Source: Brevibacterium siliguriense (GTDB lineage Bacteria; Actinomycetota; Actinomycetes; Actinomycetales; Brevibacteriaceae). Taken from it: DNA of 64,000 nucleotides. Where the stretch lies: positions 1,116,001 to 1,180,000 of the forward strand of contig NZ_LT629766.1 of assembly GCF_900105315.1 (NCBI RefSeq), in the 5' to 3' direction. The position numbers and the translations under genes were made by a program. The notes under the pieces are model-generated. The model did not search any database. It was not told the origin of the DNA and saw nothing but the letters and a program-made list of their open reading frames with translations. This document shows, in pieces, positions 27,101 to 29,525 of the stretch. Positions within the stretch are counted from its first letter, which is position 1, and each line of letters begins with the position of its first letter.

Positions 27101-28324
27101 TCACTCCGTGGCTCTGCGTTGCCGGGACAGCAGAGCCGTCAGCTGGTGGCATTCGGACGTGGACATCGTGCCCAGTCCGAAGCGGATATCTGCGACGAGG
27201 TGGCTGGCCCGGTCGGTCAAGGCACGTCCCTTCGGGGTGAGCTCGGCGACGACCTCTCCGTCGTCTCCGGGTTCCAGGGTCCTTTCGATGAGGCAGTTCT
27301 CCTCAAGCCACCTCACCGAGTGGAAGGACGAGCTGGCTTCGACCTGCAGCCGGTCGGTGAGTTCGACGAGGGGCAGGGCTCCGCTGGACTCGAAAAACAG
27401 AAGGAGCAGGATCTCGTACCTTGCGTAGGTCAGGCCCAGAGGGCGCAGCTTCTCATCGAGATCGGTGATGAGGCGTCGATGGGCGTGCATGAGTTCAGTG
27501 GCGGCCTGCATCCGGTTGCGTTCCGGCCAGCGCAGCTCCCATTCGCCTGCTGCAGCTGAGATGGAGTCCTCGAAGACAGGCAGCGCACTACCGACTCTGA
27601 ATTCTTCGGACGCGGCATCGCGGTAGCCGACGTCGAGTTCCATCGTGTTCCACTCTTCGGTGTCGACCGTCGATTCGGCGCCGGTGTCGAAGACGCGCTC
27701 GCTCAACTCGCCGCTCTCTGCGTGAGAGTCGTGAGCAGTGAGGTCCTCATCGGTCAGGAGGTCATCGACTGTGCTGTCGTCGTCATCATCGTCCTCGGCC
27801 CCGGAATTGAAGGATTTGATGGTCGCCCGCAGGCCGGAACGCTGGATGACCGTCTGGATGGTCAGATCCCGTTCGTCGGGCCGACCGACGTATCTGATGT
27901 CGCGCAGTCCCTGGTCTTGGGCGGCCGATTCGAAGACGAAGTGACCGTAACGGAAGATCCGACCCATGAGTGGTTTGTGCACTGAGATGTCGAGGATTCG
28001 CGCCATCGGCATCGTTGCCTTGTGCTGTGTGAAGATCCCATGAATCCGGAACACTCGCATGTTAGTGATGACGAAGCGGTCCATATGCACGAAGAGCGCG
28101 CGGTAGACGCCGAAGAGCATGACGACGCAGCCGATGCCCAAAGGGATCGTGGCGAACTCGGGCGGAATGACGAAGGACAGGGCAGCGACTGCCAGCCCCA
28201 GGAGGATGATGAGCGTGGGAGTGACGAAGGCAAGCGGGTGACGCCGCACTTCGTCGACGATGACCTCACCTTCTTCGCTGATGAGGTGGTTCTCGACCTG
28301 TGGGTCGGTCAGCGAACTCAACAC
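27101..28324 (-). CDS. PH-domain membrane protein fused to MarR regulator
   Basis: One continuous 407-residue frame with two unrelated halves. Residues 1-170 hold two transmembrane helices (about 30-75) and a bacterial PH domain (bPH2-like: FVITNMRVFRIHGIFTQHKATMPMARI). Residues about 175-255 are a highly acidic linker with a six-Asp run. Residues about 258-407 form a full MarR protein (LRPLGLTYARYEILLLL, then wing and dimer helices). If made as one chain, it is a membrane-tethered DNA-binding protein. An in-frame ATG at 27643 could also give free MarR. GTG start; a small membrane-protein gene lies upstream. Confidence 0.8.
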   Translation of the reverse strand: MLSSLTDPQVENHLISEEGEVIVDEVRRHPLAFVTPTLIILLGLAVAALSFVIPPEFATIPLGIGCVVMLFGVYRALFVHMDRFVITNMRVFRIHGIFTQHKATMPMARILDISVHKPLMGRIFRYGHFVFESAAQDQGLRDIRYVGRPDERDLTIQTVIQRSGLRATIKSFNSGAEDDDDDDSTVDDLLTDEDLTAHDSHAESGELSERVFDTGAESTVDTEEWNTMELDVGYRDAASEEFRVGSALPVFEDSISAAAGEWELRWPERNRMQAATELMHAHRRLITDLDEKLRPLGLTYARYEILLLLFFESSGALPLVELTDRLQVEASSSFHSVRWLEENCLIERTLEPGDDGEVVAELTPKGRALTDRASHLVADIRFGLGTMSTSECHQLTALLSRQRRATE

Positions 28325-28345: not shown

Positions 28346-28510
28346 CTATGCGGAGAGTGAGGTGAAGAACGTGACCAATGAGCCGACGCCGGTGCCGACT
28401 GCGGCAAAGGCGGTCCTGACCGCCTCGGCGGAATCCTCCGGACGGCTGAACAGGTAGAACGCCACGAAGATGACGACGAGTGTGAGGATGGCTTTCTTAA
28501 CCCACTTCAC
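28346..28510 (-). CDS. Small single-helix membrane protein, 54 residues
   Basis: GTG start at 28510 with GAGGAG seven bases before it. The protein starts KWVKKAILTLVVIFVAFYLF after the initiator: a positive N-terminus, then one hydrophobic helix, then an amphipathic Ala/Val-rich tail. A longer reading to 28573 lacks a ribosome site. It is the first gene of a two-gene unit with the PH-MarR fusion 21 bases downstream. Function unknown; it could be a partner of the PH-domain membrane part. Confidence 0.65.
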   Translation of the reverse strand: MKWVKKAILTLVVIFVAFYLFSRPEDSAEAVRTAFAAVGTGVGSLVTFFTSLSA

Positions 28511-28772
28511 AATGGACTCCTCTGTGCCGCGTCGCTGAGGCAGCGGAAGCGGACATTTGGTTGCACAACTCATCTAGCGTAACTGCCCCGGTGCTCTCGA
28601 GTCCGGCTGACGCGCCAAGGAATTGTGATCGCTGTCTCATTGACTGAGATATGAGCTGGTATAGGGATTCGGCCCGAAATGCTCCTGGCGGTGCTCGATT
28701 CCGGTTTTCCTCAATCGGTCTCGACGGTCAGCACCAGTGCCTTCGTGAGGGCAGATTCGTAGAGTCGAAGAC

Positions 28773-29024
28773 ATGAACTCACTATTCGACTCCATCCGCA
28801 GAATCGGTTTCCGTCGCGGCCCCGACCGCATCCTCGGCGGTATCGCCGGGGGCCTTTCTCAGACGACCGGCATCAACGTCTGGGTCATGCGACTCATCGT
28901 CCTCGCCTCGTTCCTGCTGCCCGTGCTCGGAATCGGCGCCTACCTCGTCGCGTGGATCCTCACACCGTGGCAGGACGATTCGATCCCGCTGCAGCAGGTC
29001 TTCGGCGGTCGCACAATCGAGTGA
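28773..29024 (+). CDS. PspC-domain small membrane protein
   Basis: An 83-residue protein with the PspC core: GPDRILGGIAGGLSQTTGINVWVMRLI at about 16-42, then a hydrophobic helix ending YLVAWILTPW. PspC-domain proteins act in phage-shock/envelope-stress responses or as toxin-antitoxin-like membrane regulators. The sequence is short but complete for single-domain actinobacterial members. No pspA-like gene is nearby. Confidence 0.85.
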   Translation: MNSLFDSIRRIGFRRGPDRILGGIAGGLSQTTGINVWVMRLIVLASFLLPVLGIGAYLVAWILTPWQDDSIPLQQVFGGRTIE

Positions 29025-29089
29025 CAGCGGGTCGGCGGTCGCTCGAATGACTCCCAGGCTGCGATCGGTCGATGCGCAAGTGTGAGGGC

Positions 29090-29505
29090 ATGAGCGAAAG
29101 CAAATCCTCTCCGCCGGCTAACCGCTACCCGGCGGCCGACGAATGGCAGGTAGTCGACAGGTACTTCACTGACCCTCTCGTCGGTGAAGACGACGCGCTC
29201 ATTGCAACCCGTAGGTCAGGTGCTGCGACGTCAACGCCCAATGCCGAGGTCGCAGCCAACCAAGGAGCGTTCCTCGGGCTCCTGGTGAAGATCGCCGGGG
29301 CGAAACGCGTCTTCGAATTCGGCACACTGGCAGGCTATTGGCCATCTGGCTCGCGCAAGCCGCGGGAGAGGGCGGACACGTCGTCACACTCGAACTCGAA
29401 TCGCAGAATGCGGCAATCGCTAGGAACCCCGATCTGGAGGCCACGGCACTCCAGACCGTCGGCGAGAAGGGATGGGACGGACTCATCATCGCGCGTCGGC
29501 GGTGA
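29090..29505 (+). pseudogene. Decayed SAM-dependent O-methyltransferase
   Basis: The N-terminal part (VDRYFTDPLV... QGAFLGLLVKIAGAKRVFEFGTLAGY) matches class I O-methyltransferases of the catechol/caffeoyl-CoA group. After 29338 the frame is shifted by one missing base; in the next frame AIWLAQAAGEGGHVVTLELE continues the Rossmann fold. Near 29425-29432 the sequence jumps directly to the family's C-terminal end (LEATALQTVGEKGWDGL). About 100 central residues are therefore missing. The gene cannot make an active enzyme. Confidence 0.8.
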
Positions 29506-29525
29506 TGCGAATTAGAGCGCAGGAT

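Follow-up and report, generated by a model that had tools for sequence, protein, structure and literature searches.

The gene under study lies on the minus strand at positions 27101..28324 of the window, by which is meant the whole 64,000-nucleotide stretch of Brevibacterium siliguriense DNA that was analyzed, where a 407-codon open frame with a GTG start and no stop within it joins a PH-like domain to a MarR-fold domain (all parts of the gene given below are on the same strand). Its N-terminal part contains a predicted membrane hairpin (residues 30–81, 28082..28237), in which hydropathy and the AlphaFold model both give two helices, placed by the model at residues 30–51 and 59–81 and joined there by a short outer loop of residues 52–58; the attachment to the membrane by two helices that was proposed in a preliminary description of this DNA is thus also the prediction made here. 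The hairpin precedes a bPH_2 PH-like domain (residues 83–162, 27839..28078), for which Pfam PF03703 scores 40 bits over residues 83–150 against a cutoff of 22, and which is modeled as strands at residues 83–147 followed by a helix at 149–162. The PH half gave no match to PDB sequences up to an E-value of 1, and because MarR chains took up the results when the complete model was searched by fold, its PH part was hardly probed. The PH-like domain is followed by an acidic disordered linker (residues 166–252, 27569..27829; pLDDT below 50), which, measured from RSGLR to RWPER, comprises 98 residues with a net charge of −26, and the acidic character noted in the preliminary description is general, as the corresponding segment in all 15 fusions identified in the genus spans 85–133 residues and always carries a net charge of −18 to −28.

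The MarR-fold domain occupies residues 254–406 (27107..27565), as delimited by the AlphaFold model, the fold search, and phmmer. It includes an altered recognition helix (residues 330–342, 27299..27337), with W339 where unfused MarR proteins have arginine, and wing position 356 (27257..27259), where comparison with the columns of unfused MarR proteins shows that the arginine of the DxR motif is absent. The Pfam MarR models score below their cutoffs in the window protein (MarR, 13.3 vs. 24.6; HTH_27, 21.2 vs. 22.2), and of three other fusions that were scanned only the one at locus L096 passes (HTH_27, 23.3). The MarR relationship is nonetheless secure, because phmmer matches this half to Sco5413 (PDB 4b8x) with an E-value of 4.7e-21 and the AlphaFold model aligns well with known MarR structures, including 1lnw (Z 15.3, 138 residues aligned) and 4b8x (Z 14.9). 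The model was built from a 47-row alignment with a mean pLDDT of 74, and its pTM of 0.50 is too low to fix the mutual arrangement of the domains. The parts of the protein belong to known families, bPH_2 for the one and MarR, judged by ancestry and fold, for the other.

Just upstream of the fusion gene lies the gene for S75, a 75-amino-acid membrane peptide with one predicted helix (28346..28573, minus strand), and beyond it, in divergent orientation, a gene for an 83-amino-acid PspC-domain membrane protein (28773..29024, plus strand; Pfam PspC, 49.3 bits), with an inverted repeat, TCTCA-N5-TGAGA, between the two (28635..28649). S75 is present in all 15 carrier genomes, with a remnant in two others, and it lies directly upstream of the fusion in all ten carriers compared (the window and nine others) as well as upstream of many PH genes in other families. 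bPH_2 proteins occur in leaderless-bacteriocin clusters according to the available text of one report (PMC11580447); such a role for S75 and the PH protein was set aside, since S75 adjoins the PH gene in several families in the manner of a stable partner. In two genomes of the genus, G027 and G448, S75 is cut at about residue 62 (L207:5822-5986 and L208:5191-5355) and stops about 20 bases short of the end of a monooxygenase gene, a scar that likely reflects deletion of the fusion gene. The PspC gene occurs in 49 of the 57 genus genomes and is therefore not specific to the fusion; it is divergent from S75 in 9/10 carriers compared, and in G022 and G442 it is found on the opposite side of the fusion gene. 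In G028, a second PspC-like copy stands in tandem (L035:10316-10522), and a match there (G028:C1:1321315-1321527) contains three in-frame TGA codons. The frame at 29072-29515 of the window, which we take to be methyltransferase-like, matches its relatives at L031 and L032 in two pieces that lie farther apart there, which suggests that the window copy has lost an internal piece.

Among 57 Brevibacterium genomes, the fusion is present in 15, that of the window included, and no match to it was found in the other 42 at E ≤ 1e-30. Each frame was read, and all 15 are uninterrupted, with lengths of 395 to 442 residues (the shortest counted from a start three bases downstream of the initial guess), so that the single fused protein frame of the preliminary description holds in every carrier genome; separate genes for the two halves, the arrangement in close relatives that it had named as evidence against a fusion, were found in none of the 57 genomes at E ≤ 1e-30. 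Two near relatives, G013 and G035, are 91% and 89% identical to the window DNA, respectively. An assembly or sequencing error is ruled out by the uninterrupted frame common to 15 genomes. In 12 pairs chosen from the 105 possible, dN/dS was 0–0.085 in the PH domain, 0.014–0.297 in the MarR segment, and 0.25–1.4 in the fast-evolving linker, and the MarR segment is full-length, without stops or frameshifts, in 15/15 fusions. As these rates indicate, purifying selection preserves both the PH and the MarR domains, and with the charge of the linker kept while its length varies, this rules out a chance open frame. Judged from the same frames, the fusion is fixed in one Brevibacterium lineage; the 15 copies are not independent observations, as all descend from one event.

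The origin of the gene can be traced through its relatives in a scan of named genomes, from which the best 80 of 290 loci were kept. Ten of these 80 are fused, and all ten are from Brevibacterium; another 23 have a PH gene followed by a separate MarR gene on the same strand (Microlunatus and other Propionibacteriaceae, Nocardioides, Marmoricola, and other Propionibacteriales), and in 10/23 pairs a possible start of the MarR gene shares 1 or 4 bases with the stop of the PH gene; and 47, mainly from Microbacterium and Agromyces with some from Nocardioides, have the PH gene only, meaning that no MarR match (E ≤ 0.01) starts within 1.5 kb downstream, although some contigs end sooner. In family f38, the PH and MarR genes are likewise adjacent with a stop between them in all eight genomes inspected. 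Four MarR proteins of this family are 62–64% identical to the free Streptomyces-type MarR and 52–55% to the PH-adjacent MarR of Microlunatus, so PH neighbors are not limited to one MarR subfamily. Four apparent fusions outside Brevibacterium were ruled out because their DNA has a stop between the halves, namely a 434-amino-acid open frame in G272 and, in f38, those of G156 (412 amino acids), G253 (425), and G270 (450).

A tree of the MarR segments was built from 71 rows, namely the window and 70 of 119 loci; the 47 PH-only loci and the loci L177 and L178, which gave no usable MarR match, were left out, and f38 MarR proteins are absent both from the tree and from the 60 unfused rows compared below. 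The fused MarR segments form one clade (100/99), which is nested within the PH-adjacent MarR proteins of Propionibacteriaceae and whose sister is that of Microlunatus endophyticus (98/89, 95/91), and a supported branch (98/97) separates the PH-linked MarR proteins from 36 free ones. The stem of the fused clade is long (1.39 changes per column), and its exact placement is accordingly to be read with caution. The separate adjacent genes in relatives, together with the nesting of the fused clade among PH-adjacent MarR proteins, identify the gene as a derived operon fusion.

The DNA-binding residues of the MarR half were compared between the 15 fused proteins and 60 unfused ones, comprising 24 PH-adjacent MarR proteins, 18 class-level and 6 order-level relatives, and 12 free paralogues from Brevibacterium (the locus L027 was counted in the order-level group for the column, retention, and charge comparisons). 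Wing position 356 is arginine in 60/60 unfused proteins and in none of the fusions (G in 13, E in 2), position 329 is histidine in 60/60 vs. 0/15, position 334 is threonine in 59/60 vs. 0/15, and position 339 of the recognition helix is arginine in 59/60 unfused proteins, with lysine in the remaining one, vs. tryptophan in 15/15 fusions. In the SCO3205–DNA complex, as given in the available text of its description, Asp96 holds the wing residue Arg98, which reaches into the minor groove, while phosphates are contacted from the recognition helix by Arg81 and Ser76 among others (PMC3737563); positions 356, 339, and 334 correspond to Arg98, Arg81, and Ser76, respectively, and R348 to a phosphate-contacting arginine, by ungapped counting and not by a tool alignment. 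The change extends to charge, since the winged helix (residues 297–362) has a mean net charge of −8.8 in the fusions (range −10 to −4), whereas the four unfused groups average between +2.0 and +4.7 (individual proteins, 0 to +7). In contrast, the charge of helix 1, the first dimer helix, is unchanged (0.6 in fusions vs. 0.1–0.8), and helices 5–6 have not become acidic (+2.3 vs. −3.1 to +0.2). For the columns conserved among unfused proteins, retention in the fusions is 70% for helix 1, 83% for helix 2, 82% for helix 5, and complete for the single such column of helix 6, vs. 42% for the recognition helix and 57% for the wing; counted as complete losses, the changes show no significant enrichment in these last two regions taken together (4/13 vs. 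4/31 conserved columns, Fisher p 0.21).

Read from these columns, the MarR half has lost its DNA-face signature after fusion and most likely does not bind operator DNA. The full MarR regulator of the preliminary description is therefore upheld in its fold but not in its DNA-binding residues, and a working DNA-binding regulator is not supported, given the loss, in 15/15 fusions, of the wing arginine, the recognition-helix arginine, the histidine, the threonine, and the positive DNA face. Because the wing D-x-R arginine is a defining DNA-binding feature and is absent, the fusion is not called a MarR transcription factor here. DNA binding may persist in an altered form, given that R348 is retained in 15/15 fusions (as is S332) and D354 in 12/15, and that R338 is present in 14/15 (vs. 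4/24 of the PH-adjacent unfused proteins). A membrane-tethered transcription factor, whose MarR half would bind DNA with changed specificity either in place or after proteolytic release, would draw on these residues, on the intact MarR fold of the model, on the purifying selection on that domain, and on the inverted repeat, which is kept upstream, with no more than one mismatch, in 9/10 Brevibacterium loci. Such a factor is nevertheless rather unlikely in view of the missing wing arginine and the acidic winged helix, and the repeat itself is missing at L103, which has the fusion without a divergent PspC gene. Among the best 80 of 290 relatives, the repeat was found upstream of none of the 23 loci with separate PH and MarR genes and none of the 47 PH-only loci, and its exact sequence occurs at two sites in the whole genome, the other at G000:C1:3725265. 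The repeat follows the divergent PspC arrangement rather than the MarR domain and is not claimed as an operator of the fusion.

The altered residues could also belong to a decaying passenger, in which the MarR half drifts toward loss and the PH half alone is functional. The gene is missing from 42 of the 57 genus genomes, the truncated S75 of G027 and G448 is a likely deletion scar, and the stem branch of the fused clade is long, all of which would fit such a course, but the low dN/dS of the MarR segment, its full length in every fusion, and the conservation of the altered helix itself (for example, W339 in 15/15) make this reading very improbable.

The lost residues bear as well on how a free regulator might arise from the gene. 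The preliminary description had suggested that an internal in-frame ATG at 27643 (residue 228, 27641..27643, minus strand) could produce free MarR; the codon exists and is ATG in 14/15 fusions (ATA in G035), but a GGAG-type site within 20 bases upstream accompanies it in only 4/15, and initiation there is a possible but doubtful source of the free protein, which, if made, would carry the same DNA-binding losses. Given the same losses, there is also little left to argue for release by proteolysis. The ancestral start of the free MarR was considered similarly and rejected because it is not kept: across the 16-codon stretch that corresponds to the beginning of the free protein, GTG or TTG occurs in 9/15 fusions and ATG in 1/15, while 5/15 have none of the three.

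The reading that we favor, and consider probable though by no means assured, is that the fusion encodes a membrane-held MarR-fold module for dimerization or protein binding, derived from an operon fusion and without canonical DNA binding. An ancestral actinobacterial operon encoded the small membrane peptide S75, a PH-domain membrane protein, and a MarR regulator, and the last two genes were joined in a Brevibacterium ancestor. The helical hairpin would anchor the product with the N-terminus and both the PH domain and the MarR fold in the cytoplasm, a topology made probable by arginines on either side of the helices and by the available text of PMC2817789, which regards such PH domains as intracellular. 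The acidic disordered tether of roughly 85–130 residues links the PH domain to the MarR fold and would leave two folds free to pair; after the fusion, the MarR core and dimer helices were retained while the DNA-binding residues were lost and the DNA side turned acidic. Because the DNA face is acidic and lacks its key residues, we infer that the MarR fold pairs PH units or recruits a protein partner at the membrane.

A membrane-held anti-regulator is a different use of the same fold, in which the disarmed MarR would form mixed dimers with a DNA-binding partner or mimic DNA for it, for example keeping a free Sco5413-like MarR of the same cell off its operators. The same genome indeed encodes a free MarR whose DNA-binding residues are intact (G000:C1:3309337-3309657), which is one candidate partner for the favored module as well; the conserved positions of helices 1, 5, and 6 are kept in part or in full, and the winged helix and linker are both acidic. 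This free MarR is, however, from another subfamily and also occurs in genus genomes without the fusion, and an anti-regulator of this kind is unlikely. Equally speculative is a sensory form of capture, in which the membrane-held acidic MarR fold would hold a DNA-binding partner and release or withhold it depending on a signal sensed by the PH domain; if true, it would represent a new regulatory design arising from operon fusion and charge reversal of a DNA face.

For a membrane-held dimerization or protein-binding module, as favored here, several known systems provide points of comparison. CadC and ToxR carry a membrane anchor and a winged-helix domain of OmpR type in one chain. The fusion likewise joins a predicted membrane anchor and a winged helix in one chain, but it has no outer sensor domain (only the short loop of residues 52–58), its winged helix is of MarR and not OmpR type, and its DNA-binding residues are lost. 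The former DUF304 group of bacterial PH domains is described, in the available text of one study, as having a cytosolic PH-like domain adjoining membrane helices (PMC2817789); the fusion shares the placement of a PH domain next to membrane helices and adds the acidic tether and the MarR fold. Sco5413, a widespread actinomycete MarR and the nearest solved sequence relative of the MarR half, is free-standing, whereas the MarR half is membrane-linked in one chain; the 18 free relatives sampled in the class keep the wing arginine in 18/18 and the recognition arginine in 17 (lysine in one), both lost in the fusions, and have a neutral to positive winged helix where that of the fusions is acidic. 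No description of the fused architecture as a regulator, or of a disarmed MarR within it, was found in the part of the literature covered by the search, in agreement with the preliminary description, and no function was found here for the bPH_2 membrane protein or for Sco5413-like MarR proteins. If confirmed, the fusion would be an example from nature of a repressor fold that bound DNA and became a part without DNA binding once joined to a membrane protein. Such proteins could receive transcription-regulator labels in annotation.

Further counterparts are the PH and MarR pairs of Microlunatus, Nocardioides, and other Actinomycetes, which have the same domains in the same order and on the same strand, often with S75 upstream, but as two genes with a stop between them instead of one; their MarR proteins keep the wing and recognition arginines in 24/24 aligned sequences, and the fusions lack both. 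The fusion ties the bPH_2 membrane protein and the Sco5413-like MarR proteins into one system, found as adjacent genes in several families and as one chain in Brevibacterium, and so opens the role of the two-gene form to testing. In Microlunatus endophyticus (L105:4488-4830), the PH gene has a 79-residue tail with a net charge of −6, and the MarR lies in another frame with no ATG, GTG, or TTG start ahead of its conserved part, an arrangement that may be an intermediate, a frameshift, or an unusual start. Among the PH-only genes of Microbacterium (L111, L125, L128, and others), the frame often continues for about 90 residues past the PH match without a MarR domain.
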